Source: Amanita rubescens
Lineage: Eukaryota > Basidiomycota > Agaricomycetes > Agaricales > Amanitaceae
NCBI GenBank assembly: GCA_015039365.1
Contig: WION01000036.1
Location: 186,001 to 250,000 of the forward strand
Direction: 5' to 3'
Length of the DNA stretch: 64,000 nt
Shown here: piece by piece, positions 35,111 to 60,927 of the stretch
Position numbering within the stretch: the first letter of the stretch is position 1
Layout of the letters: each line of letters opens with the position of its first letter
The notes under the pieces: model-generated
The model's database searches: none
The model's input: only the letters and a program-made list of their open reading frames with translations
Told to the model about the DNA's origin: nothing
Program-made: the position numbers and the translations under genes

Positions 35111-35132
35111 CACCCCTTCGCTTAGATATCCT

Positions 35133-37455: not shown

Positions 37456-37751
37456 TGTAAGGTAGCTACAAGAGCTGCCTGAAGCCCTATGGATATTCAT
37501 GATGTTGGAGATCCAGAGGATCTCCAAGCCTGAAGACTGGGGAGTTGTGGACAACTCCCATAGATATACTGTATATAGTTGAAGTCACGCGTGACTGTAT
37601 ATTCACGCATTGACACATTACATAATCATCCTATACTTTACCCACCTGCGCTACATAGCACGTCTCAAGAATATATCTTGGTCCAGTGCACACTGTTGGC
37701 GCAACGGGTGTTTGTATAAGGAATAACCACTATCATCTTAACCACTTTACA
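37456..37751 (+). repeat. 5' LTR of element A
   Basis: 296 bp, apparently identical to 45363-45658. It contains perfect hairpins such as GGGAGTTGT/ACAACTCCC. CTTTTTTGCAC follows directly inside; it does not look like a usual tRNA primer-binding site. Confidence 0.95.
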
Positions 37752-37876
37752 CTTTTTTGCACTACCCTGTGCAGACGTGCCTCATAGCTTTCAAACTTGA
37801 AAGCTGAACATCAAATATATTCAAGATCAACACCCACTCGTTCTACACCCACATAGAGCGAACCCGAATCACCCTA

Positions 37877-40800
37877 ATGGCCCCAGGAGGCTCCAAGAAG
37901 CCTCCACTGGATATCCCGAGGGAAACGAACCCTCGGGAAAGTTTGAATCTCGCAATTGAGGAAACCTCCTCATTGCTCCTTCCCGAGAAGGAGAGGAGGT
38001 ATCGTTCCTCACGAAAACGAATGAAAACTAAGTACTACGAGCTTGAGGCTCGTAGTGAGCAAATACGCAATGAAGTTCAGTTGAACTTCAGCTCAACATT
38101 GTCTCGTGAACTGGAAATAATATCCAGTACCCTTAAGAGCTGGCGGAAAGTCTTCCCCGCTCATAAACGAGAACATTATCTTCAGTGTTCTCAACTCATA
38201 TCCGATCACGCAACTGAGTTTGACATGTTCGTCGCGACATACTTGAAGTCTCACTTCAGACTCAATGAGCATTCACGCGTCGTTCAACTCAACTTCCGCA
38301 ACGCGTACCTATGCTTGCATAATGGTTCTTATGCCTCGGACACGTTACCCAAGCCATTCCTGAAGCTTGCTGAAATCTGGGATTCACGTGTACGCATTCA
38401 GCTCACTCACGACCTTACCCACTCGGATAGCCAACCTCCGACTCAAGACCCCGGTAACAAGCTGTCACCACTATTGGCAACCGCCGAGACAACGAGGAAG
38501 AGTCCCGGAGTCATCTCAAAGACGACTGTAGACAAGCGAGAACGCGTCCGAAGTGCGTCAACGCCAACACGTCCTGTCTCAACTCCGAGTAGGACCACCC
38601 TTCTCCCTATGGAGGACAAGCCCCGTCCTTCAACCGTTCCACGCAAACACGACTCTCCACGAGTCAAGTACGATGCTGGAAAGAGAGACTCGGCCCTTGA
38701 GTCTCCAGATACCCCGAGACGAGTTCAAGTCACTCGTACTCAAGAGCGTCCGAGCTCGTTGAAGCCGGACCTCACTCCCGCATCTCGTGAACTCCAAAGG
38801 AATTCACCGAGTAAGCCCAACGAGCCAGCAATAGCTCGTGGTTTAGATTCACGAGGGAAACTTCCCTCGGAATCGTCTAAGAAGACGGAATTGTCCGTCT
38901 CTCATACACCGTCTCGGAAATCCAATACGCGTGATAAGCGTATACCGCCGCCAATGTTGGAACCCTCCGTGTTTGTCCGGAAACTTCCAGACAAAAGTAC
39001 GAGAGTTGTCGGATCTTCGTCAAAGTATCAAGTTGTCGCCGCCGTCGCACGTTGTGCTCCTATCCCTCGCGCTGAGTCCAAATCGAAGTCTCGAATTGGA
39101 TATAAGTTGGTTAGCACGAAGGAACAAGAGAGCGCAGTCAAATATGCACCTTCAACCGAGACAGCCCTCTCGCTGTCTGAATCTTTGCCCGTCACCTCTA
39201 TACGGGCCAATCCTTCAGCTCAGCTCAAACATGAGCTAACCCTCGCGCCTTCGTGGCTTCCTAAACGATGCGATCGTGTCGTCACCACAAAGTCAGCAAT
39301 CAGCGAACCTCCCGCTGTACGAGAGGTAGTTCAACTCGAACAAATTATAGAAGTAGAGGGGAGCTCACCCTTACTTCCCGAAATCTCAAATGAGCACATA
39401 CCCGCGCGCTCGCCTGATGCTCTTGGATTCGTGAGCGCGCCCGGCTATATTTCTTCCTTTGCTGGTGAAATGGGGGAGAAACGGCAAGTTTGCGATGCCA
39501 TTGTCAGTATACAGAATGTCGAAAGTGAGGAAGTATCCTCACTGGTCCCGGAAGACTCCACGTCGCTAGTCCCCTCTTCTGTTGCCTCTACTGTTCCCGC
39601 ATTCCCAACTGCACCTGCTCACGCACCTTCAAACGGACTTATACTACCACCCTTTGAGGTGGTATCAGTATTACGATGTAGCCTAAACATCGTTAGTATA
39701 CACAATAACGAAGATGAGGAAGTTTCCTCACCTGCTCTCCCTGCACGTAACATGCCTACTCGTCAATCTCCAGATGAGGCTTCACCACCGGCTGAGGTGG
39801 TATCGAGACGATGCAGCCTGAACATTGTCAATATATACGACAACGTAGACGAGGAAGTCCGATCCTCACCTGTCCCTCCTACTCGTGGTACTTCTCGTCG
39901 GTCTCCCAAGGTTACAACACCTATTGAGGTGTTACCGAGACAACGTAACTATGACATTGTCAGTACACATCGAGGAAGTGAGGAAGCCTCCTCAACTGAT
40001 GACGTGGCAGTCCCTACACTGTCAGCTCCCAATCCCATCATCCTTCCCGTCCTCTCTGTTCAAGCCGAACCCTCTGGTGAACCCGCAGACGAGGATGAAT
40101 CATCTGCTAAGGTGGTATCACAACAATATGATCCAAACGTCGTTAGCAGCTCAAAGCCATCAAGAGTGAGTAAAGTATACTCACCGTACCCTAGGACCGC
40201 TCGTAAGCAGTCCGAACTCTTGAAAACTCCTTCCGAAGTGTCGGAAGGAAGACCACGTGTGAAAGCCGTGGTACACGTTCAGGAGCGTACAGTTCGATGC
40301 TCCTCTATCCTCAACGACTCCGTTTGTCGGATCCCGAAGGTTCTACCTAGCAGAACAGTTGCTACTGTGTCCAAATCGAAGTCTCGAATTGGAGACACAG
40401 CGGTCAGTACAAGAAAGCTAGCAAGTCGGACAGAATACATGCCCTTTGCCAAGGAAACTTCCTTGGTGCCAAAACCTTCGCCAGTCTCCCCTACACCGGC
40501 CATCCCCTCTTCACAGCTCCAAAATGAGCTAATCCGTTCACCTCCTCGTGTTTCTAAACGACGTGAGGTTCACGTTACGAACAAGAAACTGGTAGTGAGT
40601 AAAGTCACTCACCAAAAGAATGAAGTCCGTTCTAGAGTCCCTGAGCCAGCCTTAAACGTGCGGGCTGGTAAGAATTTACTCGCTCCCTCTGCGAGAAAGC
40701 CGCAACAGCTCAAAAGAACTGTTGAAGTCGAGAGGAACGCACCTGCGCCTCTCGAAACGTCAAAAGAGAGCATAATCGAACGCTCTACGTCAATTCCTGG

Positions 40801-42361
40801 ACCTTCTAACATACGGGTCCAATCTTCTTTACTTTCAATCGAATTGGGGGAGAAACGGCGGATCTACGACACCACCGTCGTTAATATACAGCACATAAGT
40901 GAGGAAATGTCCTCACCTAATGCCTTGGTAGCGTCCATGCTATCCGTCCCTGCTCCCGCTACCTCTTCCGTCCAAGCAGAGGCTCCTCGTCACCCACTAG
41001 ACGAGGACAGGCCACCTATTGAGGCAGTATCTAGACAACATGGCCTAAATGTTGTCAATGACAGAACAACAGTGAGTAAGGTATACTCACGGAACTCCCA
41101 GACTGTTCGAAGGCAGTCTAACCCCAACAACTATCCTTCTGAAGTTTCAGAAGGAAGGCATTTAGCGAGCGCTGCAGCGTACGTTCAAGAACGCAGACGT
41201 AGACGTTCACTCGATTGTGACGAAACCATTCGTCGTATCCATAAGGGTCCACCGGACAAGACAAACGAGTCCGCATCCCAACGACTGAGCCTATTCGTCG
41301 TTAGGAGAGAAATAGACTTGAGCATGAGTGCATGCTCACCCGAAGATTCCGAACCCCCTCCGGTACAACCCGAGGCTGCTCCTCAGCACTTCAACATCCC
41401 GAGAGCCACTGAGCTCTCTATTCCCTGTTCGAAACCGGTTCTGCGCCGTCCTGAGCCCATACTGGGAATCTCCCATGTTGAAATCTCGGAAAATCGTGCG
41501 GAAAGACTCCCGGAGTCCGTCAACGTCGAGGAACGTGTTGAAGACACCCCTCAAGACCCATACGCCGTCAACAACGAGGAAAGGAATGTTAACCTGCACT
41601 CACCTAGTCCCCGTGTGGCTGTCTCGTCACCCTACCCTTCAATTCTTGTCCATCCCGTGCAGGCTTATCCAATCCTCCAGCTGAAAAGCATCGCGCTTCA
41701 GCTGGATCAGCCTTTCATGCGGTCGAACGTTGGGCCCGACTGTCTCGATTCATCCCGACAGCAAGTGCTAGACGTCGTCAGTGGAACAGTTGGAGTGAGC
41801 ATCAACCCGCACTCACCTGTACCAAGCGCGGTCCCCACGTCGTTCTTCTCATCGACGTCCACCAGTGCTCTACTGTCCCTTCCAACGACCCAGTTGAGTA
41901 GCGCTTTGCGCCAACTGGTTGGATCTTCAACACAGTCGAGTGACTTGCCCTCTCAATCCCGACGATATCCCTGTGATGTCGTCAGTCAGTCATTCAACCC
42001 GAGCGCCGCTGCGTACTCACCTCAACCCGCAATGGCGCTCACACTGCCGATACTCCAAGCTGTAGCTTTCGACCTTGACTGTAGTCTTGGCATGTCGTTG
42101 AGAATGACGCGGGTCCTCAGTGTCATTACCTTCTGCGCAATCCACAATCGCGAGGCTGAAGAGACGGAGTACACAATCATCCACGAGGATGACAAGACTC
42201 CCACTTCAGCCCCTCCTTATGCCTACGTTGACGCCAAGGCCGCAGCGAACGCGCCACCCTCGCTTCCGCCCAAACCTTCGTGGTGGGCGGAAACTCCTGA
42301 TTCCACGAGCGTCGAACATATTTGGCGCACCCGCTATAAGCCGTCCAACGTAGCGGTGTAA
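37877..42361 (+). CDS. 1494-codon ORF of element A, no recognised domain
   Basis: Opens at ATG 37877, 125 nt inside the 5' LTR, and stays open to TAA 42359. Residues about 1-175 are the only globular-looking part (for example REHYLQCSQLISDHATEFDM) and could be a diverged Gag; this is a guess. The rest is Ser/Pro/Arg/Val-rich and made of diverged repeats with a core like SLNIVSIHNNEDEEVSSP, and two copies of a module around AAAYVQERRRRRS...KGPPDK. No protease, RT or integrase motif is present. The DNA is full of short perfect hairpins, and the antisense of each IV(S/N)...SP core reads as a canonical fungal intron. Whether the protein is made is unknown. Confidence 0.6.
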   Translation: MAPGGSKKPPLDIPRETNPRESLNLAIEETSSLLLPEKERRYRSSRKRMKTKYYELEARSEQIRNEVQLNFSSTLSRELEIISSTLKSWRKVFPAHKREHYLQCSQLISDHATEFDMFVATYLKSHFRLNEHSRVVQLNFRNAYLCLHNGSYASDTLPKPFLKLAEIWDSRVRIQLTHDLTHSDSQPPTQDPGNKLSPLLATAETTRKSPGVISKTTVDKRERVRSASTPTRPVSTPSRTTLLPMEDKPRPSTVPRKHDSPRVKYDAGKRDSALESPDTPRRVQVTRTQERPSSLKPDLTPASRELQRNSPSKPNEPAIARGLDSRGKLPSESSKKTELSVSHTPSRKSNTRDKRIPPPMLEPSVFVRKLPDKSTRVVGSSSKYQVVAAVARCAPIPRAESKSKSRIGYKLVSTKEQESAVKYAPSTETALSLSESLPVTSIRANPSAQLKHELTLAPSWLPKRCDRVVTTKSAISEPPAVREVVQLEQIIEVEGSSPLLPEISNEHIPARSPDALGFVSAPGYISSFAGEMGEKRQVCDAIVSIQNVESEEVSSLVPEDSTSLVPSSVASTVPAFPTAPAHAPSNGLILPPFEVVSVLRCSLNIVSIHNNEDEEVSSPALPARNMPTRQSPDEASPPAEVVSRRCSLNIVNIYDNVDEEVRSSPVPPTRGTSRRSPKVTTPIEVLPRQRNYDIVSTHRGSEEASSTDDVAVPTLSAPNPIILPVLSVQAEPSGEPADEDESSAKVVSQQYDPNVVSSSKPSRVSKVYSPYPRTARKQSELLKTPSEVSEGRPRVKAVVHVQERTVRCSSILNDSVCRIPKVLPSRTVATVSKSKSRIGDTAVSTRKLASRTEYMPFAKETSLVPKPSPVSPTPAIPSSQLQNELIRSPPRVSKRREVHVTNKKLVVSKVTHQKNEVRSRVPEPALNVRAGKNLLAPSARKPQQLKRTVEVERNAPAPLETSKESIIERSTSIPGPSNIRVQSSLLSIELGEKRRIYDTTVVNIQHISEEMSSPNALVASMLSVPAPATSSVQAEAPRHPLDEDRPPIEAVSRQHGLNVVNDRTTVSKVYSRNSQTVRRQSNPNNYPSEVSEGRHLASAAAYVQERRRRRSLDCDETIRRIHKGPPDKTNESASQRLSLFVVRREIDLSMSACSPEDSEPPPVQPEAAPQHFNIPRATELSIPCSKPVLRRPEPILGISHVEISENRAERLPESVNVEERVEDTPQDPYAVNNEERNVNLHSPSPRVAVSSPYPSILVHPVQAYPILQLKSIALQLDQPFMRSNVGPDCLDSSRQQVLDVVSGTVGVSINPHSPVPSAVPTSFFSSTSTSALLSLPTTQLSSALRQLVGSSTQSSDLPSQSRRYPCDVVSQSFNPSAAAYSPQPAMALTLPILQAVAFDLDCSLGMSLRMTRVLSVITFCAIHNREAEETEYTIIHEDDKTPTSAPPYAYVDAKAAANAPPSLPPKPSWWAETPDSTSVEHIWRTRYKPSNVAV
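39683..39731 (-). other. Antisense intron-like unit (example in element A)
   Basis: Read on the minus strand, this 49-nt unit has donor CAG|GTGAGG, the perfect branch-point box TACTAAC (39692-39698) and acceptor TTTAG. Similar units are at 39818-39869, 41045-41090, 41291-41339, 41768-41816 and 42711-42753. All are 43-52 nt, the same size as the introns of the host genes here. Confidence 0.6.
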
Positions 42362-45351
42362 CGTATCGATTCCGGCTATGCTGGAACCGATACTGAAACC
42401 CTTCCGACATCCGGACTCGGACCTCCGACACCTCGGACCCCCAACCTCGGCATCGGATATGTCTCGGACCGAGTAGCGCACATAGTACACGAGGTACACA
42501 GTATATATTATGTCGTAGTTAGTTCGGATATACATCTTCTTCTCCCCCGCACTGCGCATCTACGTTCCGAGAGTCAACGAGTGCGACCGAGCTCGGACGA
42601 GCACCTTTCGGTGCTGCCGAACTCGCCGGCCGCATCGCATCTCGGAGGCTGCACCCCAAGTCAGCCTCTCTTGCGTTGTTTCAGCGGTTAACTCGAGACG
42701 ACTGGATTGCCTAGTTGTCAATAAAACGAATGTGATGGGTGAACATCACTCACATCTACGCTGGGCGGAAACGATACCGCCCAACTTAACAATGATCTTC
42801 GTACTCGGAAATGAACCTGGTCCCGAGGCTAAAGCAACGAACGAATTGGGTCACTCCCTAACCCACGAGCGTCGCGCGGAATCTCCGCATTGTCAATATT
42901 CTCGGTCTCCTTCGTTGTTGGCTTCACCGTGACTCCGAGTCCCCCAAATCTGTAAATCTGTAAATTATGAAGATATCCATCAATAAAACGACTAAATCCG
43001 AGTTGTAAACATACAACTCACCTAATTAATCAACTTAATCATTTACGACCACGGAGACTCATCTCCGAACATTTAATTTTACTCCTCTTCTCTTGAAGGG
43101 GAAAGGACTCGGCGAGTCAAACGCGATTCGCCTTAAAAATAATAAATCAACCGAGAGTTAAATCAAACTCTCTGAAAACATACGGAAGACTCGCCATTAG
43201 GTCTTCCAACCGTTCATTGGACATTCGCGTACTCGGGAATACCGTATCTAGCATGTCCCGCAGTTAATAAAAGTACAGGAAAACGAAAGGAAGAAGGCTT
43301 ACCGGCTGGTAGTCTCTATCCCTTTCTCCTGCACTCGTGACCCCTTATTGCTCGATTTACGCATGGTTCACAAACGAGAGGTCGACGCAAAGTCCTAACC
43401 TCGAGGCTGACATATCGTCCAAGCCTTGAAAATGCTTCTGAGGGCCAGTATTAGTCCTCCCTTCTAATCCATCTACCTGAGAAGCCACGCCAACGTCATT
43501 GAGCTGTCAATACGAGGATGGAAAGCCGGAAGATGAGACTTACCTAGTCTCGAAAGTATCCCGCTCCCGTCTCCCTCTTAATTTCGTCGGCCGTTCGACC
43601 GAATGATGGATAAAAGACAATGCTATGCCAACGTCGTCAGTAACTCAACATCACCATAGTAGGATTACCTACTATGCTTGTACCCTCGGGAAACTATCCC
43701 GAGAATCTCAACTTCTCCACCGAAAAAAAAAAAAAAAAAAAAAGAATTCTGGGGGAAGAGACTCGCGACGAGTCTAAGTCGATTCTTGTAATCTCCAATA
43801 GCGCCGGAGAGTATCAAGGAACTCTCTAAAATGCACAAAGGACACTCTTCTGAGTTCTTCACATTGATACGAGACAGCTGTGAGAAGCATTAGCGAGAAA
43901 AACGGAAGAAGTAGATGAGGAAGGACTTACCCATCCAAAGTCCTCACCCCTTTCCCGTCTTGCCCGCTCCCATCCGTCCTCGGCGTCCAGTTGGCTAGTT
44001 CTCCATCGAAGACAACACACAGGCTGTTGCTGGGCCCATTCCGTCCCTGTCGAAACGCATGAGGGACCAAACCCTCGTGAAATAGCCAGTATGCACACCT
44101 ATAGGCAGAAATCAGACACCGCGTCGACAGGAAAGATACCTGGAACTCACCCGGCATCCAGACCACCCCCAATTCTCCCCAGAACACGTTCTGTGGGGGA
44201 GAACTCATCCAACTATTCGCAATTGAGTAGCACACGAGGTCGCCTACACGCTGCCTCATCCCCTTCTCCTATCCGCGGCACGCCATTGCATGGAAGTCAT
44301 CCAGCCCCTAATGTGAGTGTCACCGTCAGTCAATGGTGCCAGAGCCAAGAAGAGAAGAAGACGAGGAACTCACCTCGTCCTCATACCTGCCACATACGAT
44401 CGCTCCGTCCCTCTCTTCCTCGTCCTTCCCTTCCTTGTCCTTCCGTCTTCTCCACCGCGAAGGAGTCTAAATGGCTCTTGTAGCCGTTATCGCAACGTTT
44501 GATGAGCTCCAGTCGATAGGAGCTCCCCTTCTCATCGTTATCGCTGGACACCCCTAGCGATTGACGCGCGCATCACATGACCACCGACCTTCCAAATCTG
44601 GAAAGCACGTCGAAATCTCGACGCGTGCAAGCCCGTCTAATTTAGTGAGGCTCGGACCTTGCTCAGGCAGCTGGATGCTGCCAGAAGTACATGTTGGGAA
44701 GCTCCCAACACCCCCTCAACCTTGTGCTGAAGTACAGCACGCTACGACCATGAAGGCCCAGGCAACCTTCCTCATTCGGAAGTCACACCGACACCAACAC
44801 GTTCAGCTTCAAACGTTCTTATCAACCCCCACTTCGATCTCTGGACTTCAAAATCACCACGAGCAAGTCCATCACCGCGTCTCTACGCATGTTGAGCTCC
44901 GCTTCTACCACCCAAGAGCACCGCTGCCGCCTCCCTCGAATCCTGGTTGGTCACACACACGTCACGAACTTCCAAACTGGGAAGGAACGTCGAATTTTGA
45001 CGCGCACCCTCGTCAAACGTTCAGAAGACTGGTTCTCGCTCACGCCGCGTCGGAAATGTTCGCTTTCAGAAGGAACAAACACCTATCACTACTCTACACC
45101 TCCGAGGATAGAAGAAGTAAATTACTGCGACGATTTACCGTCTCTCCACGGAAAATGGTGCCCCAAGTTGAATTTTGCACGGAAATCTCTTCTCCCCTCA
45201 GTTCTACCTTCGCCCCGTACCTTGTGGCGAGTGGGGGAGGATGTGAGGGCTATACAATCTCCTTGGGGAATTTTCTCAAGATGAATCAACGTCCTCAAGC
45301 CCAAATTTCGTTCACATCTGCATTTTCAATTGAAGATCACTACATGATCTT
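42362..45351 (+). other. 3' untranslated region of element A
   Basis: Three kilobases without a recognisable gene. The hairpin pattern continues (for example AGCACC/GGTGCT near 42605), and antisense introns continue too (42711-42753, with others near 43270, 43510, 43640, 43900, 44100 and 44330). An A21 run lies at 43723-43743. Two diverged copies of a module with a CGTCGA/TCGACG-type hairpin occur near 44570-44640 and 44950-45030; relatives are in element B near 60000-60260. A 268-codon frame at 44561-45367 runs into the LTR and is not supported as a gene. Confidence 0.6.
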
Positions 45352-45362
45352 GTGGGGGAGAG
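45352..45362 (+). promoter_or_regulatory. Polypurine tract of element A
   Basis: GTGGGGGAGAG immediately before the 3' LTR, the position of the plus-strand primer. The same string precedes the 3' LTR of element B. Confidence 0.8.
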
Positions 45363-45658
45363 TGTAAGGTAGCTACAAGAGCTGCCTGAAGCCCTATGGA
45401 TATTCATGATGTTGGAGATCCAGAGGATCTCCAAGCCTGAAGACTGGGGAGTTGTGGACAACTCCCATAGATATACTGTATATAGTTGAAGTCACGCGTG
45501 ACTGTATATTCACGCATTGACACATTACATAATCATCCTATACTTTACCCACCTGCGCTACATAGCACGTCTCAAGAATATATCTTGGTCCAGTGCACAC
45601 TGTTGGCGCAACGGGTGTTTGTATAAGGAATAACCACTATCATCTTAACCACTTTACA
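45363..45658 (+). repeat. 3' LTR of element A
   Basis: 296 bp matching 37456-37751 with no difference noticed, followed by the target copy TAGAT. Confidence 0.95.
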
Positions 45659-48600
45659 TAGATACATATGGTATCAGTGTTATAGGCCTAGAAGGAACAG
45701 GAGTCTCCTCTTTTATTTGTGGAGAGGGAGTACGTCTAAAGGGTTCAGGAGTTTTACGTTTTTTAAACATATCACTCATTTGACGTTTGAATTGATCTCG
45801 TAAACGAGACTGTTTATCAATTCCTTGACCCTTTTTCCAATCATCGCGTTGTCTACGATAATTGTCACGTCTTTCTTGTTCTCTTTCTTCCCTTTGCCTT
45901 TGGATATCATCTTCCAAAAAAATCTCTTCGACGATTGGCAAATTCATCACCATCATCATCATCGTTTGAATCATCAGAAGGGTCTGACTGCTGTCGATCA
46001 GGAGATGCACCCCTTCGATCCAAACTTGGTGAGCGTCTATGGCTCGGAGAACGTCTACGGTTCTCTGGGAGTAAGTTATCTAGATCCAAATTTTGTGGAG
46101 GGCGGTTAGGTTCCTCTTGAGGAATCGCCTCCCAGATCGGACCAAGATCTTCAGTAATTATATCTGCAGTCTTTCCTTTGCGCGGAAACCTGTTTTCAAA
46201 GAATGTAGCCTGGGAGGATATGACCAGTGTGTTTGTCGACGTCATGAACCTATAGCCTTTGGTTCCTGATTCATATCCTACAAAAGTGCATAAAACGGAT
46301 TTTTCGGACAGCTTATCCGGTCTCCGTTGATCAGGGATAAATACCCAGGCTTCACATCCAAATACTCGAAAGTATGATACGTCTGGTTTTTTGTTAAGAA
46401 GATTTTCCAGAGGGGTCTTCCATTTAGTCCGTTTTAGGGGAGTGCGGTTGTACACATGCACAGCCGTTCTGAATGAGAACTCCCACCAAGATTTCGGACA
46501 TCCTGCGTCTAATCGCATAGCCTCAGCTTTGTCTGACAAAGTCTGATTCATGCGTTCAACGCGACCATTTTGTTGTGGGGTGTAAGGAGCTGTCTGTTGA
46601 TGTTTAATTCCTTTGGATTTAAGGAATTCTTCAAAGGCTTTATTTACAAATTCCCCCCCTCGATCAGAACGGAGGTGAGAAATAGGTTGTTTAGGATCTA
46701 CAAACTCATTATACCATCCGGTAAAATATTCTAGAGTTTGATCTTTGGTTTTTAATAAACCAATCCACGTATACGAGGTGAAATCGTCAACGATAACACC
46801 AATATATTTGTATTTGTGGTAAGATATGGCCGGTACGGTCATGAGATCCATATGGAGTAACTCAAAGGGATGAGTAGCTCTCTTTGAAGACAGTTTATAA
46901 GGTTTTGCCTTCATTTTGCCTTTTAGACAACCTTCACAACGTAGTTTTCCTTCTGGAAGTGTAACTTCTTTCCATCCATTGACATTTAACGGTATCTTTG
47001 AAAAGACTTCGTTAGATGGATGACCAAAACGTTTATGCCAGGTCTCGTAGTCTAATAGTTTTTCTATAGACTCTGCGTTTGGTTTCTTTATCGGTCTTCC
47101 AAGAATTAATTTAGAATTCCTGTTGGCTAAGCCAGGACCGGAAACCAGTGTAGGATTCATTATAATAATCCTACCTCGAGCGTAAACTAATGTATCATCG
47201 GGCACAAGATAATGTCCTTCGATACATGTTCTACCCGAGTCTGTAAAGGAAAAGACTACCATCTTTTCATCTTGTTTACAAGTTAATCCTTGTCGGATCA
47301 ATCTGCCGTTTGAAATCAAGCGTGCAGTTGCCCGTGGCATATAAAGGACAGGGAAGAGCTTTACGAGTGTTGTTTCTCCTGTGGATAACTTGTGTTCAAG
47401 AATAACTGTGCCAAGTCCCTCAAGACGATCTAAACCATTAGCAGTTTTAACACTGTGGTTTTCATTTGCAGGAAATTCTCTGTATTCAGAGAAGTCTTTC
47501 CTACTAAAGGTAAAGTGATCGGATGCACCGGAGTCACACATCCATAGCGTATCTCCAGTACGTTTCTCAACACATTCCGGACAGGGACATGTTGGATGTA
47601 CTTTATCCTTAAATTTTCTTTTATTGACCGCTAAACATGTAAAAGGTTTCTTAAACATGTTACCAATATTATATGATCGTTCGATCATATTTGCATTATA
47701 AATGGCAGTATCACACGACTTATCTCTTACGAGGCAGGTTTCGTCTAAATTTTCTTTATAATTTATACTATCATATAGTACAGATTGTTCAAAGAAGGAA
47801 TTTATAGTACGACGATGATGTCCCAGTTTAGGGAACACCATTTTCATCGCTGCCTCTATAAAGAGAAAGTTAGCCATTTCCAGTTTCTTAATGGTTTCAT
47901 ACCATTGTTCGCCGTTATCTTCATAGTAATAATCGTCATAATATAGTTCAGCTTCCTGATCTATATCCATATTTTTATAATCGATATCGTCTGACGATAT
48001 CCCCATTCCTCGGTTCGATTTATAGGACTCAAAGTCCTGTTCGTCCTTTTCTCTTTGTTTGCCTTTGCTAGAGCCGGCAAATGGCTCAGTGATGTCATAA
48101 GGCCCAATACGGGCGACGGTATGTGCAGAACTCATAGTATGTTCTGCGGCTTTGGCAGCCTTCTTCTCGGCTGCATCTGCCTTTCGGCGTTCTCGGTTCC
48201 TCTCCCAGTTAGGACCACGTGTTTGGCCCTCAACTTTACCCGGCCAATTTTGATTTGCCGGAGGAGCAGTAGGAGCCGGTGTCTGAGCGCCTTGTGGAGG
48301 CCTAGAATAAGGCCTCCCCCCACGTCCACGACCTGCTCCGCGGCCACGTCCACGAGCACGTCCTTGTCCTCGACCACGTACTTGTTGCCATGGTTGCTGC
48401 TGTTGTTGCGACGTATTAGCCGTCGCGGCAGATTCAGGGTGCCTTCGGCGCCACTCATTCTGGATTAAGGGAAGTATCCCTTGGATCGTAAGATCCGATG
48501 GTTCTGTTGTGGCAAGAACCACAGCAGCAAAGTTGTCCCAATGACGGGGGACAGCTGAAAGTACAATCATTGCCTGTACATTTGCAGGCAATGTAATTCC

Positions 48601-49179: not shown

Positions 49180-49180
49180 G

Positions 49181-50629: not shown

Positions 50630-51036
50630 TGACGAAGAAGACAGGTCTACGCGAGAGCATGTCCACAGCATGAGCAGGTGCAATAGCTTACCTATTGCGA
50701 TATGATCTTAGCACTACCCTTCGGCGTAGTAGTGATAGTAAGAGGAAGAGAATGGATTGTCCTATTCTACGATACAGGACAGGTTTATATACTAAGAGAG
50801 AACAAATATGTATCTACATATGTGTAAGTGTATAGTATAGATGGGAAGATATGGCGTGCTAAGCACACCATAAGATGTGATCATGAGTCTATCATGATGT
50901 CACCATGATATCATAATGAAGTCATTATGATGTCATCTCTATGTCATACATAAAGGATGACGTGAGCGATATGAGTAACATTGATTGTAGTCAATCAGTA
51001 GTTAATCATTCTATAAATATAATTCTATATTTAACA
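50630..51036 (-). repeat. 5' LTR of the Copia element
   Basis: 407 bp, apparently identical to 34704-35110. Flanked outside by GATTT (51037-51041). Confidence 0.95.
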
Positions 51037-51365
51037 GATTTCAATAGCAGGTAACACCTTTGCATGGTGGCTATGAGATTGAATCCTTGTCTGATTGCGC
51101 TGACGCTGTGGTTGACTTGCAACCATTGGCTGCTGTGTCATCCTTCTTTCAGAAAACTTGGTATAATATGTTGACAGATGCTCAGGCAGTTTATAGAATA
51201 TTGTTTCACCATTGGCATGAGAAGACCACCAATATGCCATTTGCTGAAAATGTGGCTTGTTCTGGGTGCACCATGCACCTCCAGGCAGGATAGCTTTTGC
51301 AAAGAGATCAAATTCTCCCTTGGTATGAACTGGGGTTACACCAAACTTTGTCCTTTGTGCTTTAG
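51037..51365 (-). pseudogene. Middle piece of the interrupted transposon exonuclease gene
   Basis: The minus-strand frame between the two LTR insertions encodes KFGVTPVHTKGEFDLFAKAI, WWSSHANGETIFY and a Gln/Arg-rich stretch. On its upstream side it joins the 60928-64000 piece after removal of element B and one TTTAG (…AFLAK to AQRTKF). On its downstream side it joins 34703 after removal of the Copia element. Both joins are in frame, which proves a single ancestral ORF. Confidence 0.88.
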
Positions 51366-51550
51366 TGTAACGGGTATATTTCCGTTACAGGAAGTCAGAG
51401 ATAATATGTACAAACAATACAGTATATACTCGTGTTTGGCACTGTATATAGGCATCTTTACAACTACCTACTACACGAATATACAAGTTGATTCAGTGTA
51501 GTCCGGGTGTACACAAGATAACCAACACATAACGGATAATATCCGTTACA
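51366..51550 (+). repeat. 5' LTR of element B
   Basis: 185 bp. Compared with the 3' copy I see two substitutions (near 51487 and 51544). It starts with an internal inverted repeat (TGTAACGG near the start, CCGTTACA at both ends). Confidence 0.92.
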
Positions 51551-51748
51551 CTTTTTTACACTCTCGAAGTGTAGTAGGCCCTTTACAGGAGCCTTTTTAT
51601 CGATTACAAACACGAGTACAGTGTTGCAGCCCCGGCCGCGACACTCTAAGAAGTCTCCCGAGACTTCTAAACACCTAAACCAAGTCTACACACGTAGACT
51701 CTCAACCAGAACGCATAAAACACATTCCGAAATACCCGAGTATTCTTA

Positions 51749-52246
51749 ATGCTCGACGAGCCTCAATACACGAGGCTTTACACTCAACAAGCCTTTCAAG
51801 GCTCGTACAATCTGAAAGACCCTCCCAGGTCTCTGACACTTAAGTATCCAGGCCCTCATTGGGTCCCGGACAACTTGCGCGCAGCCTGGTGCGCAGCCGA
51901 AACACTTACGCGTTGCTTATCACGCGACACGTCAATCACCTACAAGTCCGCACGCCGAATGCTGGACTTGGTCTTACCTGACCAGCGCGACAATTGCGAG
52001 ATCGGAATTGAGCTCATGCTCAAAGCCGGATGGTTCACACCAGAACGAGAGCAGTCAAGCGCTCGTTCTTCCATCACTCAGAACCCATTGAAACAGGGTA
52101 CTCATGGATCACGCAAACGGGATAGCCCACGAGCCTCCCGTCTTTTAGATGACATGCTGGATGAGTTCATAAAACGCCAAGACGAGTTGAGATCCGAGTT
52201 AGCGAAGCGCGAGGAGCTCAAGTCCTCGTTACGTCCTGCCACCTGA
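51749..52246 (+). CDS. First ORF of element B, possibly Gag-like
   Basis: 165 residues from ATG 51749. It looks globular in the first half (HWVPDNLRAAWCAAETLTRC, LPDQRDNCEIGIELMLKAGW) and charged and helical at the end (DEFIKRQDELRSELAKREEL). The second ORF starts 5 nt after it in another phase, a layout that recalls gag/pol overlap. The Gag role is a guess from position; no zinc knuckle or major homology region is visible. Confidence 0.5.
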   Translation: MLDEPQYTRLYTQQAFQGSYNLKDPPRSLTLKYPGPHWVPDNLRAAWCAAETLTRCLSRDTSITYKSARRMLDLVLPDQRDNCEIGIELMLKAGWFTPEREQSSARSSITQNPLKQGTHGSRKRDSPRASRLLDDMLDEFIKRQDELRSELAKREELKSSLRPAT

Positions 52247-52251
52247 GTCCA

Positions 52252-55200
52252 ATGCCCGGCGCATCCGTTTTCATTCGAGAACAGCCTCAGAAGACTGTTC
52301 TAACCGAAGAGCAACAGAAAGGAAGCTCTTTCTCCGACTTGAAACCCGCGAAGCCAACGTTCTCTGACTCCTTTTCTGAACCGGGGAAGGTGATGGCTGA
52401 GAGATCGCCATTGAGTCCGTTACGGCCGTCCGTTCTCTCTGGGCCATTGCAGTCAAACCTCGGTGAAAGAACCCGTCCACGAGTGACGTCTGTGGCCAGT
52501 CTGAGAGTCTCAGCCACCGAGACTCAGAATTCAGCCGAACGAGTGCAATTGACTCGTTGTATGGCAGTTCTGAGCTCTGCAAAGCCGGACCACTTGCCTG
52601 CGCCTCAAGGACTTGAGTTGAGTGCTCCGAGATTCACCCGAGAGCCTCCTTCAGCTCGTAAATCCACTTTAACGAGTCATAACGCCCTCAAGTCGATTCC
52701 CGAGATGGATTCAGCCATCTCCTGGCCTTCACCAAGCCTTAGCGTGCGCGCAAAGGCTCAAGAACAGTCTATTGAGACCGTTCTAGATAGAGAATCCCCG
52801 AAAGGAAGTCCCCACATTGACTTAAAGCTGTTTGGCCCGGATGTCTCGGCTCCTGCGCCTTCCACGTGCGGAATTGCTCGAATGCCCGAGAGATCACCTG
52901 CTGGAAAGGGAGAAGTCAGCTTGGAGAAGCGAATGAGTGCAGTTAAGCACTCACCTGTAGCCGAAGCAGCCCCCACGCCGCCAAAGTCCATGCCCGTCTC
53001 GTATATACGGGCCCTGCCTGCCTCTTCTTCCAAGGATGGAGTTCCTCTATCCCCCCGGGTGATCCCAATGCAACGTACGCCTATCGGTGTCAACACGCGT
53101 CGAGTAGTAAACGATACGACTCACCGTCAGGATGAGACTCCTCGAGTCTTCCGAAAACCTTCTTCGCCGCGGTATGAAACGCCTTCTCCTGCGATTTCGG
53201 AACGACGCAACCTCAGTGTTGTAATGAGTACAACGCCAAAGTCGAGCAGCTGGCTCTCACCTTCGAGGAACGCAATCTCCACGTCGCGAAACTCTACGCC
53301 CGTTTCCTTTATTCCGCGGGCCCCTCCTGTCAATAAGCCCAACGACAGGATTGCTATGTCTCTCCAGATGGTTTCGACGCGGCGTGCGCCAAATATAGTC
53401 AATACGCGTCGCGTGGTGAAAGTAGATGCTCACCATCATGATGAGACTTGTTCGAGAGTCTCGTCAAAAGCCGTGAACCCGCGGATTGGTAAAACACCGA
53501 TTGCAGGTGTTGAAGGACGCTCCAACAAGCGCTCTAATGTCAATAGAGGGCCAGCTATCAAGCAAGCCCTGATGTCCTCCCTTTCATCCGAGATGGGGGA
53601 GAGACGACGGGTTCCTGACACCGTCGTCAGTAAGATAAAAGGAACAATGGAGGAAACACACTCACCTTTCGACAACGCAACCCTCTTGCTGCTCGAATCC
53701 GTGCAAACTTTCCCGATCTTGACGCCTTACAACCGTCCCTTTGTGGAGGGGATCGTATCATCCTCTTTCGAAGTTTCGACACCTGTCACATTGGGTGTTG
53801 TCAATAACGGACGTTTGGCAAGTATTGGCACTGACCAAGAGGTAAAGACTCTCACGAGAGTCTCATCGAAGACCACAGTTCCGCGGTCTGATAAACCACT
53901 CGCCGAATGTTCTAACCTTGAGGAAGGGTATGCCGTTGAGCAAGCCCTGGCTTTTTCTCATTCAACCGAAGTGGGGAAGGGACGGCAAGCCTGTAATGCT
54001 GCCGTTATCAACGAGCAGAAGGAGGAGGAAGCATCCTCACCCAGTGAAGTCCCGGTTGTTCCTGTACAATCGGTCTCCACTCCCGATGCCTCGTCCTTCA
54101 CTCCCGTGCGAGACGTACCTCTTCGTCTGTTTTCAGACAAATACATACCGCCTGTTGAGGAGTTATCTAGACGACATGATGTTAGTGTCGTCTGTAAGAC
54201 TTCGGAAGTGTGTTCATCACACTCACGTAGTCTCGAGACCACTCGAAAGCGGGCTATCGTTTCCACCGTTCCCTTTTCCGTTGAAGGGGAAGGGCAGCTC
54301 AAGAGAGCTGCTGCATATATTCAAGAGCGTATCAAACGTCGCTCTTCCGTGCCTGACGAGTTTCCTCGTTACGGTTCCAAAGGACCTCCCGATAAGCGTA
54401 TGGAGATTACATCAACAGCAATCGAGTCGCGACGTCTAGAAACAGATGTCATCAGAGCAAGGTTGGAGGCGAGAACAACGCTCACCTTGTCCCCATGTCG
54501 TACAAAGGGCGTCAAGCTCTCTCATTCATCGCCAGAGGCTACTCTTGAGTTGCCTGACTCGAGTCTTGGGACCTCGGTCACGGATGGTCGGGATTTGAAG
54601 CCACGACAGCTTGGACAAGCTGTCGAAGCAATCAGATGCTCTGACGAGTGTCTAAAGACTGAGGATTCAGTCTTGGAGGAGTCGGTCATAGCTCCTCGGG
54701 TTCTTAAGAACGAATGGGCTCCTGGGCCTGATGAAGGACAGCCTGTGTCTTGGAAAGTTGTCAGTAAAACTGAAATGAGGAGTGCATGTCTGCACTCACC
54801 TGTTACCTCAGCGGCCCTCACGCCGTTTGCTCTCTTGCCTGCCTTCCTGTCGCAGGCCCTTCCGTCCAGTCTGCTGAGTTCAGAACTCAGCGGTTTTCTT
54901 ACAAAGTCTTCTGGTGAAGGAGACTGCGAGTGGCGACATAATAAGGTCGCTAACTCACCGAACAATCCGGGTGTTGGAACGCAATCGCCCGAATCCAAGA
55001 TTAGAGTAGTAACGCTAGTCTCAAAGCCTTCGTTCAGCCTCAGCGTACACGCTAAGGCTCAAGAACAGCCTATTAAGGCCGTTCTGAATGTGACTTTTTT
55101 GTCGTCATCCAAGCGTTGCGAGAACCGCGAGTCTGCGAAACATTCCGTGGACAAGGTCAACATTAGAGCAGGGAAGGGTTTGGGTGCTGCTGAACGCTCA

Positions 55201-55628
55201 CCTTTTACCAACGCAGTCTCAACGCTGCGTAGATCCTTGCCTGTTCCCTCTCTACGGGCCCCTCATGCCCGTTATTTCAAAGATGGGGCTACTCCGTCCT
55301 TTCCGATGAATTCGACGCGACGCATGCTGGGAGTAGTCAATACGCGTCGAGTGGTGAGCGTAATGACTCACCTCAAACCTGAGACTCCCTCTCGAGTCTC
55401 TTGTGAAGTTGCTTCAACGCGGTCGGATAAAGCGCCATCCGCGGGTGCTCAAGGACGCTCCGATGAGCGTTCTAACAGTGCTGCAGGGCCTGCTGTTGAG
55501 CAAGCCCTTGTCCTTTCTTCTTTGAAAGAAGGGGAGGAACGGCGAGCCTGTGATGCCGTTATCAGTATACTAAGGAAGAATGAGGGAGAGTTTTCACCTG
55601 AGGCCTCGGTAGCCCGAGGTCTTTACTG
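52252..55628 (+). pseudogene. Second ORF of element B, 5' part, interrupted
   Basis: Open from ATG 52252 to the insertion at 55628. The protein is Ser/Pro/Arg-rich with diverged repeats like those of element A: RRVPDTVVSKIKG…SP, PNIVNTRRVVKVDA, and an AAAYIQERIKRRSS…KGPPDK module near 54310-54400. The reading frame continues exactly at 58099 after the 2.5-kb insertion (…ARGLY to WVAPTLPV), so the original ORF was about 1550 codons. Antisense intron-like units occur at 53081-53124, 53615-53665, 54167-54226 and 55327-55371. Confidence 0.6.
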
Positions 55629-58098
55629 TCCCCCCCCTATTCCGATCGGAGTCCGATCGGAGTCCGAGGAGTCCTATAGGAGTCACATCGGAATTTATTA
55701 CAAATAAGATTACATTAACATTACAAATTTTTTAACACTACATTTTTCAATCGGACTGGTATCGGATGAATAGGAAGCCTTCCGACGGACTCGAATAGGA
55801 CATAGGACTCTAATAGGACTATTCCTATAGGACTCCGACAATTCTGCGCTTTTTAATGTAGTCTTTGTAGTCTCATTTGTAATACTACCATTTGCCAAGA
55901 GTACTGTGTGACCGTGGGAAAATTTGGAAAAAAAAATGTGAAAAATGCAGAAAAATCATGTAATCAGACCAGTGTGTAAATGAACATGCCAAACAATGCC
56001 AAACTCAAGTTATTTGCAAAATACTGTTTTAAACGCTTCATGTTAAAAAATTGAATGGCTGCCAAAAATCTTGAAAAATCTGGAAAAATCATGCGATCAG
56101 ATTAGTGTGGAAATTAACATGCCAAACAATGCCAAACTCAAGATATTTGCAAAATACTGTTTTAAACACTTCATGTTGAAAAATTGAAAGGCTGCTAAAA
56201 ATCTTGAAAAATCTGGAAAAATCATGTGATCAAGATGGTGCAAGAATCATGCTCTAGAACAGAGCCAAACCCAAGATATTTGTAATTTATTCTTCAGATA
56301 TAATGGAGAGAAAATTGATAGGTTGCCAAAACATCTTGTGACTTTGTACAAGGGCCCCTGGTTATGTTGATAAGACAATTGAACCACTGGGGGTGTGGGG
56401 TCAGAGAAACTTCAAACATATTAGGTAAAACAATAGAATATCATAGTCTTAGGTTTGAGGCAATTCTGGAACAGAGCATGGACAACCGTAAAGTTATAGT
56501 ACTAGTAAAGGTGAGACTGACTGATATTGGCCTAGGCACTGTACTTAACTTCAAATTACTAATAGTACCTGTGATTGGAGGTAGCTGATAATGATCCAGA
56601 GTAGGGCACTCAGTGTGGCAGGTCACAGGTGCCAGATGTCACTGCCACTGTGATTGGAACTTGAAGTTGATACTAGCCTATTACATGTCACTGAGCCACC
56701 ATTCTGTTACTAATAGTATTGACTCCCACATTATGCATGCCTGATTAGTTTTGGAAGTGACAGACCCACTTATGTATCTCTACTTACTCATCATCAAATT
56801 ATCTATCATTGTCCACACTCTGTTCAATTTCTATCATCACTGTTCTCTTAGTATTTGAGTTAACCATTGCTGAGTTAACTTTGCCACCGTATGCTTCTAG
56901 TGTGGAAGCTTAGTACATCAGCTAACACAGCAAAAGTCTGATCACAGACTTGTCTGATGTTATCTGATGCTTAAGTGTCTCTCACTGCTGCTCAGATGGT
57001 TAGATAGTCTGAAGACAAGTCAGACAACTTATGAAACACTGTCTGTCAGACAGTCAGATAATCTGTGTGTCAGCATCTGTCAGTGCCTATTAGATAGTCA
57101 GACAACCAGACAATTAGTGTGTTAGCATCTGTCAGTGCCTGTCAGATAGTCAGACAGTCAGACAATTATTAATATGCTTCTAACAACCACAGCTCACTGT
57201 GCCATACCATCCGACCAAATAACCAAGAACTCATCTCCACCTGCTTTCACCCCTTGACTTCAATACATACATAATCACAAATCCCTCATATTTACATACC
57301 TATGACAAATTGACAATCATAGGTGATTGGTGGTGAGTCATTGGTTGTTGCTGGCAACAAACATGTGGGATTGTGGAACTAAAACTAGATCATCACTTCA
57401 ACTGGCACTCTGCACTGCACCTCCAGCAGCCACTGCCATCATGTGCATGTTGCCAATGTCCTTGACCTCAGCAGCTACTCACCACTCAAGTCACATTACT
57501 GAAACTGACTTTCACCACTGCCAGCCCTTTCTAACTGATCACACATACTACATTGACTCATCATCACCAGCCAGACACACCCAAATTGTGTTGGGTTCAA
57601 CTATGGCTTTGCAGGTGGTCACATGGAGTGGTGATACATTCCTTTACATTTACCTAGAATTTGGCTCAGATTTGTGTCCTAATTCTTGCATGACCTTGTG
57701 TGCGTTTTTCAAGATCACACTTGCATCTGAAAAGTATTTTGCAAATATGTCAAGTTTGCCATTGTTTGGTTTTATAATTCTTATATAACCTGGATCACAT
57801 GGATTTTCCGCATTTTTTCAGTATTTTTTTGAATTTATTCTGCAAGTTAAAGATACCTAATATAAATAAACATAAATAAACAATACCAAACATGGTTCCC
57901 TATTTTTAAGGATTTTGGATTTCTTTTGCAAGTTAAGATGCCTAATATAAACAAACATAAACAAACAAAGCCAAACATGTTTCCTACCATTTTACCTTTT
58001 TTTACATTTTATCAGAAAGTGATCAGAGTCCTATAGGAGTCCTATAGGAGTCCTAGGAGTCTGTCGGAGTCTAATCGGACTGGGGGGGGAGTGTAAAG
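55629..58098. mobile_element. 2.5-kb non-autonomous element inside element B
   Basis: It splits the element B ORF. TACTG at 55624-55628 and 58099-58103 fits a 5-bp target duplication that restores the frame. Both ends carry long C/G runs followed by GGAGTCC-type arrays in inverted orientation (55640-55700, 58025-58080). The interior is AT-rich, without the hairpins of element B, and includes a CAGACAATCAGAC zone (56930-57180). It resembles the element at 31506-33787. The exact ends are uncertain because the flanking CTTTAC/GTAAAG could also belong to the inverted repeats. Confidence 0.6.
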
Positions 58099-59361
58099 TA
58101 CTGGGTAGCCCCCACGTTACCCGTTTGCGCTTCCGCCCCATCACTCGTCATTCCCGTGCAAACTGCAAACCCTCGTCTGCCTACAGCGGAGCCCATGTCA
58201 CCTATTAATACGGTACCAAGACGATGTGATCTAGACATTGTCTGTGAGATGCTAATAGCGAGTGACAGATTGCACTCGCCAAGTTCCGAGACTGCCCAAA
58301 AGCAGTCTGTGCCTGCGGGCGCCCTTTCCAAAGACGGGAAAAGAACGTGGCTAGATAGAGCTGCCACGTACGTCAAAGAACGACTGAATGGTCGCTCTTC
58401 CGCATGCGACGAGTTCGAACGTTGCAGCCACAAGGGTCCACCTAACAAGTTCCGGGAATCCGAGACTGACGAAGAGATTCGACGTCGTAGGCTAATAGAC
58501 GTCGTAAATGAGTTGAAGGCGAGCGGGAAACCACGCTCACCTTGTGCTTGTCCCGAGAGCTCTAGGCTCTTCCGATCTCTGCCCAAGGATGGATCACCAC
58601 AGTGCAGCAGCCTGCCAATCCACAGCTGCAAAAAGATCTGTTTTACGGTCACGAATTTGTCGCCCGTCTTAGCCGTGCTACATGCGGCCCCTATGCTGCT
58701 CTGTTCATCTGAATCTGCCCCTTTACCACGTCTGCCCTCCGAGTCATCTGAATCTGCCCCTTTACCACGTCTGCCCTCCGAGTCTGCTGTTTCGCAGCAG
58801 ACTGTTCCTTCCAGTCGGTCGAGTCTTGAACTTGACGGACTTGTTACGAAGTCTTCGGATGATGAAGACTGTAAGCTACGGCCTTGTAAGGTTGTTAGCT
58901 CATCGAGTTTTCCGGGTGATGGAACGCACCCACCCGAAACTAAGACTGGCATGCTATTGCCAGTCTCGAAACCCGACGTAATTCGGGAATCTGCTTCTCG
59001 CATCCTGAGTATTGAACTTGAGTGGCGAGCGCATTTCAAGCCACCAAACGTTGCATTTGAGCCTGAACGACGCAATAGGAGCATTGTTAGCAAAACTGTT
59101 AGCTCAAGTGCTACGAAGCACTTACTATCAGCCAAGGCAGCGTTCGCGCCGCCTATTTCGCCATCTACGCGCTCACTGGGGATGTGTAACCCATGCATTG
59201 CGCGAGTTCTTAAGCCACCCGATTGGGCAGCTTTACGACGACTTATAAATGGAGTCGTTGGTATTTTCGAACTTAGACGAGGGTTGAGCTGCTCACGTAG
59301 TAACGCGCGCTTGGCCCCCATCTTCCGCTGTCTTCGCGCAGCTCTTGAGATCAGCTCTTAA
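58099..59361 (+). pseudogene. Second ORF of element B, 3' part
   Basis: Continues the frame cut at 55628 and stops at TAA 59359. It contains another copy of the shared module (AATYVKERLNGRSS…KGPPNK, about 58355-58455). A 39-bp exact tandem duplication (58705-58743, 58744-58782) repeats SSESAPLPRLPSE. The opposite strand is also open for 416 codons (59321-58071), which is unusual. No known domain. Confidence 0.6.
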
Positions 59362-60730
59362 GCTGGTCTGAGCCTGTAAATACTATGTGAATAAGACTCT
59401 ATTATGTTAATACATTTGAGTTGCTCGACAACTCACCTAATCTTAAGCCGCTGCAGACGGGATTCAAAACCCTGTCTATAATCCTGTTCGTGCTGTTTCA
59501 TACAGCTCCCTAGATCGGCTAGCAAGCTGATCTTAAGCCTTTCATTCGGAGGGGAAGGGACTCGGGACGAGTTGTTTCCGATTCGTTTCGGGGCCTAACA
59601 CAAGAGAGAGCACGATAGGCTCCCTCTGGAATCATTATAAGAACTCTCTTCCGAGTACTAGCCTTCGTCATCGTGTAGCAGATAGGAGAGGCCAAATGTC
59701 CAGACCTTGGTGATCCGAGGACCGGTCTTGAGTACCTGAGCCGTGCTCTTGTCTTCTTGAAGCGATAACAGTGTCGAGTTGAGCAACAAGCGCAGAAGTA
59801 GAAGACGAGGACTTACCTTATCCCCGCTGCTGCCCTCATGCAGCTGTTATTGCTCCCCTCGCCTCTCCTGGATCTCCGTGGTGCAATGAAGGATTTCAGA
59901 ACGGCTTTAAAGCCGTTCTCCATAGATCTCGTCGATGGAGATCTTCTCGTGGCATTATCGCTAAGGGCTGGCGATAAACGAAGTCTGATGCGTCCTAGGC
60001 ACGTGTCACATGACCGCGGCCTTCCGGCTCGCGCCCTTGAGCCGGTACTCATGCTCAACTAAATGGAGCGCGAAATGTGTTCGGATCTCTCTCTCTCACC
60101 CAAAGCATCTCATCTTTGTCTACATCCAACCGGGAAGCCATACTATCGCCCATTAGACCACGCGGCTACTTAGTTCGCACTAAGTTCAACTGGTCACAAC
60201 CATGACGACCTTCCTTAACAGGAAGGCACGTCTAATTTCGATGTGCCTGCTCGTCAAACACGGAGTAGGCCTTTGCTCCTCACGAACATAGTCAAATATG
60301 TTTGTTTCTGTAAGGGATAGACCCCCATGTCTATCCCTCAACCTCAAATAAAGAAGTGTGGGTTTTACGAGTCGTAGAAACCGCATTTTTTTTCAATTTT
60401 TTCAATATTCTCCCACTAAAACCTTCACCTTGAAGGTTTAACCTACTTTGATACACGTCCTTTGCACCCCGCAGGTGTGGTGGGTAGGGGAGAGTATGGG
60501 GAGCTGACCTCACCAGGACAGCTGCAAAATTGGCCTATCCCAAGGCCATTAAGTAACCAAGATCGCCTTCCAAGGAAGATCTAATATTCATTAAGAAAGA
60601 ATTTGGTCCGCCACCAAATTTTTTCTTTCTTCTCTGCTAGTGATTCACGTACACGTGAATCTGGTGGGGGAGGGATCAGGAGCATATTTTCATGCACCTT
60701 CACTTCGAACTTGAGACTGCAGGGCAGTCT
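59362..60730 (+). other. 3' untranslated region of element B
   Basis: No gene recognised. Hairpins are dense: AAACCTTCA/TGAAGGTTT at 60419-60439, GATTCACGT/ACGTGAATC at 60642-60661, and ACGGCTTT/AAAGCCGT near 59900. It shares modules with the 3' region of element A. Confidence 0.55.
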
Positions 60731-60742
60731 GGTGGGGGAGAG
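60731..60742 (+). promoter_or_regulatory. Polypurine tract of element B
   Basis: GGTGGGGGAGAG directly before the 3' LTR, the same sequence as in element A. Confidence 0.8.
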
Positions 60743-60927
60743 TGTAACGGGTATATTTCCGTTACAGGAAGTCAGAGATAATATGTACAAACAATACAGT
60801 ATATACTCGTGTTTGGCACTGTATATAGGCATCTTTACAACTACCTACTACACGAATATACAAGTCGATTCAGTGTAGTCCGGGTGTACACAAGATAACC
60901 AACACATAACGGATAATATCTGTTACA
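60743..60927 (+). repeat. 3' LTR of element B
   Basis: 185 bp, ends TGTTACA, followed by the TTTAG target copy. Confidence 0.92.

Follow-up and report, generated by a model that had tools for sequence, protein, structure and literature searches.

Introduction

Splice sites and genes on the antisense strand of transposable elements have been described in several systems, in reports drawn on here in excerpt. In Blumeria hordei, long non-coding RNAs (lncRNAs) antisense to transposons are spliced, the introns of two of them having been confirmed by cloning, and the lncRNAs of this fungus overall average 2.3 exons, with more than five exons in <1.9% (PMC10648671). The plant long terminal repeat (LTR) elements Retand, Grande and RIRE2, some of this group being non-autonomous, and the retroviral HBZ have protein-coding antisense open reading frames (ORFs) located in the interval that separates the 3' LTR from the sense coding region (PMC11963269). 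In mouse LINE-1, an active retroelement, conserved antisense splice sites cause exonization (PMC2176070). Here we describe two LTR elements, A (37456-45658) and B (51366-60927), on the plus strand of a 64,000-nt window of the Amanita rubescens genome (contig WION01000036.1, positions 186,001 to 250,000; all coordinates are those of the window), whose minus strands carry chains of short segments with the signals of fungal introns, hereafter termed units.

As in B. hordei, splice sites lie antisense to fungal transposon genes and would belong to a non-coding RNA; those of the A/B family are predicted from sequence, number 6-18 per sequence in 31 of 31 sequences, and are constrained at the codon level. 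The family resembles Retand, Grande, RIRE2 and HBZ in the placement of antisense signals before the 3' LTR, and differs from them in that no conserved antisense frame was found in it and that its chain also spans the sense ORF. Unlike the LINE-1 sites, the units are complete short predicted introns, with branch boxes, arranged in chains. A and B are filed here as non-autonomous LTR elements and are presumably LARD-like: they share with that class the LTRs, the target-site duplication, the polypurine tract and an ORF in which no reverse transcriptase was found, and differ in that the family retains one long ORF (~1,100-1,700 aa in unbroken copies) without known domain. The family stands apart from these known systems in how many predicted introns it carries, in their occurrence in all sequences examined and in the constraint on codon choice. 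Among the titles and abstract openings listed from an open-licence library, none describes chains of antisense introns in LTR elements, and the term 'antisense' occurs 0 times in the available text of a paper on Amanita transposons (PMC4122921).

The reading that we favour, with moderate confidence, is that the units of the family are genuine introns of a long antisense RNA that encodes no protein; selection would keep them, and the RNA would most likely regulate the element's own sense RNA. On the further proposition that the family evolved and kept this multi-intron RNA as a working part, despite its overlap with the sense ORF, our judgement is evenly poised.

Intron-like units on the antisense strand of A and B

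Units were scanned for with a simple pattern (GTRAG donor, YTRAY branch box, YAG acceptor, length 40-70 nt), which misses the GTATGT-type donors that the host also uses. Controls were 200 first-order shuffles for A and B in the window, first-order shuffles likewise for the nine distant loci described below, and second-order shuffles for the 3' regions. The minus strand of A holds 14 units, one pair of them with a common acceptor, against 2.4±1.7 in shuffles, and its plus strand 0 against 1.3. In B, 12 units are found on the minus strand against 2.6±1.5, and 1 on the plus strand against 2.2; one of the 12 (60232-60283) bypasses an earlier CAG and is excluded by the stricter later scans, which brings the B total to 11. 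The host part of the window (1-34000) has 10 and 11 units on its two strands against ~7 expected, and the larger part of the window's Copia element has 0 and 0. The original prediction had listed ten units in A and B, and all ten were recovered independently at the exact coordinates, with GTGAG donors and TAG or CAG acceptors; their density is equalled neither on the plus strand nor in shuffled sequence.

Within the A ORF the predicted units lie at 39683-39731, 39818-39869, 40864-40916, 41045-41090, 41291-41339, 41768-41816 and 41971-42020, all on the minus strand. They continue, as had been claimed, into the non-coding 3' region of A, at 42711-42753, 42958-43021, 43248-43302, 43878-43930 (alternative donor 43947), 44099-44150 and 44308-44373 on the same strand, where 7 are counted, including the alternative donor, against 0.77 expected. 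The predicted minus-strand units of B lie at 52901-52954, 53081-53124, 53615-53665, 53999-54040, 54167-54226, 54436-54485, 54743-54799 and 55327-55371. Two further candidates on that strand of B, 59111-59176 and 60232-60283, are weak alone (1 against 0.3 expected in each part), and two inside a later insertion (56741-56787 and 57139-57197, also minus strand) are at chance level (2 against 0.8±1.0).

The same signals emerge from a motif-free count of 7-mers over A, two other family loci (L019 and L024) and both parts of B. ACTCACC (31 against 3.4 expected) and CTCACCT (34 against 4.9), which correspond in reverse complement to the donor AG|GTGAGT, are ranked first, and GTCAATA (20 against 2.2), the reverse complement of the branch box TATTGAC, is fifth after two polypurine-tract words; CTTACCT occurs 10 times against 2.2. 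Positions that the scan does not force look like splice sites as well: among 100 non-redundant units from eight sequences, C is found at -3 in 42%, A at -2 in 58%, G at -1 in 76% and T at +6 in 57%, matching CAG|GTGAGT, and a T-T-A/G preference is seen upstream of the branch box. The commonest unit lengths are 46-53 nt, with all residues modulo 3 represented, and the commonest distance from the branch point to the end of the acceptor is 10 nt (24 of the 100).

For comparison, the BiP/HSP70 gene in the window, read by eye, has at least eight host introns of 40-52 nt, with GTGAGT or GTAAGT donors in five of eight and GTATGT or GTACGT in the remainder. This by-eye comparison agrees with the earlier claim that the units match host introns in size and signals. 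The units combine the features of U2-type introns, namely an AG exon end, a GT donor followed by RAGT, a branch box, a YAG acceptor and a host-like length.

Occurrence across the family

Searches of the genome with the proteins of A and B, in which the best candidates only were scored, revealed numerous ORFs related to them at local identities of 34-99%. A first set, 22 sequences in all, comprised A, B and a further 20 loci, some partial; it has 6-18 units per minus strand of the element and 0-3 per plus strand. In nine additional distant loci, the minus strand has 6-15 against ~2 expected and the plus strand 0-2. Minus-strand units outnumber plus-strand units in 31 of 31 family sequences, counts that are not independent, as the sequences share ancestry and some (C93, C321) are possibly duplicate contigs. 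In 13 copies, most units lie ~1.5 kb to ~6.5 kb downstream of the point where the open frame starts, and 8 of 162 fall within the initial 1.5 kb.

Among the matches in a protein search, 7 of 12 are hypothetical proteins of A. rubescens, and 59 of the N-terminal 200 residues are invariant in six aligned family proteins. Four more relatives appear in that search (P0007, P0009, P0010 and P0012). Contigs with long ORFs of the family include C289, C93, C321, C7, C252, C2, C121, C473, C331 and C125.

Sense protein and nucleotide-level constraint

The units could be a by-product of a repeated peptide motif in the sense protein, RR..x(D/N)VV(S/N)....SP, in which case their intron look on the other strand would be incidental. 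Of the donors inside the ORFs of 11 copies, 87 of 95 do share one codon frame, within this recurring motif; the exceptions are 7 in the second frame and 1 in the third. Under synonymous-codon shuffling (200 shuffles, preserving protein and codon usage) most units vanish: the 11 long ORFs have 7-11 units observed against 0.7-1.4 after shuffling, with 7 against 1.12±1.04 in the A ORF, and 8 against 0.87±0.84 and 1 against 0.28 in the first and second parts of the B ORF. Two Copia frames have 0 units against 0.2-0.4.

Codon choice at the motif is extreme. The donor-forming serine of the SP pair is TCA at 51 of 57 motif places and at 47 of 154 elsewhere (p 4e-15), and the serine at the branch box is AGY in 23 of 25 compared with 363 of 1698 elsewhere, homologous places with identical context being counted once and related places remaining in these counts. 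In addition, the non-coding 3' regions of 10 sequences hold 38 minus-strand units, where 5.6 are expected and none of 100 shuffles exceeded 13, and 0 on the plus strand against 1.5, the 3' region of B having 0 units under the stricter rule of this count. Codon choice, synonymous shuffles and 3'-region units thus contradict the peptide motif as sole cause, and we regard an explanation by the motif as scarcely credible. The results support a constraint on the units at the nucleotide level that does not act via the sense protein. The ratio of nonsynonymous to synonymous substitution rates (dN/dS) of the sense ORF is 0.53-0.71 (15 pairs), and its three codon positions evolve at similar rates; this weak ORF constraint fits an added constraint at the nucleotide level.

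Conservation of signals and the 3' region

Comparison of distant families shows donors of the ORF units to be better preserved than other words: they are kept in 6 of 7 cases between A and L019, 4 of 6 between A and L024 and 6 of 11 between L019 and L024, compared with 27%, 12% and 9%, respectively, for any 5-mer. In the same three pairs, sense-strand GTRAG words are kept in 5/14, 0/13 and 1/12 cases, and other CTYAC words in 3/12, 1/11 and 1/11. When 10 pairs are pooled, donors reach an identity of 0.77, compared with 0.64 for the whole ORF.

Three blocks of the 3' region of A recur in several distant copies, and two of these blocks overlap units. At one of these 3' units, the donor is GTGAGT or GTAAG(T/C) in 9 of 11 aligned sequences, the two forms being swapped between families. 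A block at 44950-45018, detected by blastn between 3' regions and with related motif copies, is common to A, L019, L024 and B, and is a candidate control region of the predicted antisense transcript.

Antisense reading frames and introner-like amplification

Strong introns usually signal mRNA genes, and the units might separate the many short exons of a protein gene on the antisense strand. When paths through the candidate introns were searched, the best spliced antisense frame of 8 of the 11 sequences (389-602 nt) stayed within the range of 10 shuffles. In the other three, the frame exceeds those of the respective 10 shuffles (647 nt and one intron in L023; 677 nt in L028 and 1286 nt in B, both without an intron). 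These three frames lie at differing places with none in common, that of B running antisense to the second ORF part. Across eight pairs of 3' regions, most indels (75-90%) have lengths not divisible by three, and 3-base periodicity is not pronounced in any window (largest chi-square 7.0, 12-20 windows per pair). A conserved antisense reading frame, which characterizes the antisense ORFs of other LTR elements, was not found among these sequences, and an antisense protein gene appears most improbable, in agreement with the original prediction that the minus strand carries no simple gene of this kind.

The original prediction had also raised the possibility of introner-like modules amplified in antisense orientation within the element. 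When units from A, L019 and L024 were compared, with splice signals masked and self-overlap excluded, two pairs, one of them in A (score 19) and the other in L019 (score 22), exceeded all 50 controls, and one further A unit was marginal. For the other 38 of the 43 units, including all 14 of L024, likeness to any other unit stays within the controls, and unit lengths are variable. Amplification of this type is mostly not borne out and is very unlikely as an explanation of the chain; it accounts for at most a few units, slight local duplication having occurred.

A putative spliced antisense RNA

Retroelements are normally unable to retain introns. The sense orientation of A and B, assumed in the original prediction, is confirmed by the polypurine tract adjoining the 3' LTR, the target-site duplications and the intact plus-strand ORF, and because the elements are sense-oriented, introns on the antisense strand would survive retrotransposition. 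We consider the following scheme. The family, which is large in A. rubescens and has one long sense ORF, would probably depend on Ty3/Gypsy-like elements with which it shares the polypurine tract. The 6-18 spliceosomal intron signals per sequence would be introns of an antisense RNA, whose start is most likely in the conserved stretch before the 3' LTR, at the ~70-base block described above. Selection would retain these introns because introns aid RNA accumulation in these fungi, and would retain them on the antisense strand because no other introns can persist when the element passes through its sense RNA. A regulatory effect of the antisense RNA would most likely fall on the sense RNA of the element. 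In the excerpted literature, removal of introns strongly lowers mRNA accumulation for most tested genes in Cryptococcus, and an added intron increased mRNA accumulation in Schizophyllum (PMC3744415).

Several results weigh against this scheme, besides the shared ancestry of the 31 sequences. Acceptors, with an identity of 0.59 against 0.64 for the ORF, have no extra conservation, and branch boxes (0.70) have a slight excess (10 pairs). Donors in the 3' region are weakly conserved (29 of 52 kept against 43% for any 5-mer, p 0.09); GC replaces GT in 2 of 11 aligned sequences at the 3' unit described above, and at a second 3' unit, with GTGAG in 10 of 11, 1 of 11 is without GTRAG. For one copy (L028), at least 1 of the 200 synonymous shuffles equalled the observed 7 units. 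Probes for spliced junctions within the 22 sequences gave 0 matches of 309, and a genome search with one 1030-nt query of joined exons yielded no contiguous spliced copy. The position of the promoter is conjectural, being drawn from conservation.

The stronger conservation of donors bears on a reading in which only U1-binding donors matter, by suppressing early antisense polyadenylation, with branch box and acceptor secondary and little splicing. Donor words are the most over-represented and best-conserved signal, acceptors being without extra conservation, and over eight related copies antisense poly(A) signals number 6 against ~12.8 expected, compared with 25 against ~26.5 on the sense strand. 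This reading is decidedly doubtful, given the over-representation of the branch word TATTGAC and the constraint on the branch-box serine codon.

Another view accepts the introns as real and places their benefit in evasion: efficient introns would avoid spliceosome stalling and hence SCANR-like RNA interference (RNAi), or splicing would make pairing with the sense RNA incomplete. It is consistent with donors near consensus, with the Argonaute- and RNA-dependent RNA polymerase-domain genes in this genome, and with the finding, in the part of the report available, that small interfering RNA in C. neoformans is fed by inefficiently spliced transposon RNA (PMC5851062). A spliced antisense RNA would nevertheless still pair with hundreds of bases of the sense RNA, and the Copia element of the window and a Gypsy-like relative manage without such units, so we rate evasion as unlikely. 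Pieces of Piwi-domain (Argonaute) genes are numerous on contigs C124, C37, C104 and others, several being clustered on C124 and C37.

If the favoured reading of a selected, regulatory antisense RNA is true, a mobile element has a way to its own spliced RNA. It would then become possible to ask whether intron-dependent RNA accumulation, or splicing-linked escape from RNAi, shapes the transposons of mushrooms.

Structure of the elements and their relatives

Paired LTRs, target-site duplications and polypurine tracts, the hallmarks of LTR retrotransposons, are all present in A and B. The 5' LTR of A (37456..37751), which starts with TG and ends with CA, and its 3' LTR (45363..45658) are 100% identical, and the 5-bp target-site duplication TAGAT is read directly at 37451-37455 and 45659-45663. 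The sense ORF of A (37877..42361; stop-to-stop 37808-42361) encodes a Ser/Pro/Arg-rich protein of 1517 aa without Pfam domain, and the polypurine tract TGTGGGGGAGAG (45351..45362) is directly 5' of the 3' LTR, all on the plus strand. On the minus strand of the 5' LTR, CAG|GTGGGT is a possible first-exon donor for an antisense RNA started in the LTR. A lies inside a Copia element on the minus strand, whose LTRs are at 34704-35003 and 50630-50929.

Element B has LTRs (51366..51550 and 60743..60927, plus strand) that are 98% identical, a 5-bp target-site duplication TTTAG (51361-51365 and 60928-60932) and the polypurine tract TGGTGGGGGAGAG (60730-60742) directly 5' of the 3' LTR. A separate plus-strand frame of 175 aa lies at 51719-52246, and the sense ORF, on the same strand, is in two parts of 1180 aa (52165..55707) and 428 aa (58075..59361). 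Between these parts is a later insertion (55708..58074; 2.4 kb), which is AT-rich, contains a 133-nt tandem repeat and lies outside the chain; GTCCTATAGGAG-like words occur near its ends, and it may be a separate mobile element. A Pfam search of four sense frames of A and B (E 1) gave zero matches, and a reverse transcriptase was thus not found in them.

The pattern TGGGGGAGRRTGTAA, spanning the polypurine tract and the LTR start, occurs at 79 places in the genome, compared with 2 for the pattern read backwards. Many of the 79 fall outside the family loci that were read; L038 and L039 are the only two read outside the family. L039, a 5.7-kb piece at a contig end which we take to be a Ty3/Gypsy element, has RVT_1 and RT_RNaseH domains (reverse transcriptase and RNase H). 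At the tract-LTR boundary, L039 and one family branch agree in 24 of 24 bases, and they have a 66-nt LTR piece in common at 82-83% identity. The unit scan found 0 minus-strand and 0 plus-strand units in L039, and 1 minus-strand and 4 plus-strand units in the related L038 (8 kb, plus an unrelated minus-strand ORF). L038 and L039 are plausible helper candidates for the A/B family. As both lack the antisense chain, it does not belong to elements of this kind in general.

Hairpins

LTR elements from three lineages are dense in short perfect inverted repeats. Those of 7 bp are enriched 7-14x in A, B, L019, L023 and L024, 5.6x in the Copia of the window (34704-50929) and ~8x in L039/L038, compared with 1.3x in host genes. 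Hairpins were rejected as the source of the intron signals, since Copia, L039 and L038 are hairpin-rich yet without the chain. Donors lie in 6-bp stems at a frequency of 0.35, compared with 0.18 for the average base, and other CTYAC words are within hairpins about as often as donors (33% against 35%). The hairpins are a property separate from the intron chain.

Mismatches of the G-U type are enriched about equally for the sense (1.8-3.5x) and the antisense strand (2.1-2.9x) in five family sequences, against an origin of the hairpins through selection on the sense RNA; this points to a DNA-level or strand-neutral cause. Multi-base template switching was likewise rejected (10 cases against 11.4 in controls, 2121 clusters). 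Parts of A, B and Copia have a mean sense-strand folding z of -1.3 to -2.4, compared with ~-0.2 to 0 in host genes. Among one-sided changes in A and L009-L028, antisense G-U outnumbers sense G-U (2022 against 1568; 1697 against 1218), a smaller antisense excess being present also in most slid controls. Paired positions in the same comparisons co-change 811 times against 156-363 for slid partners, and 673 times against 180-281.

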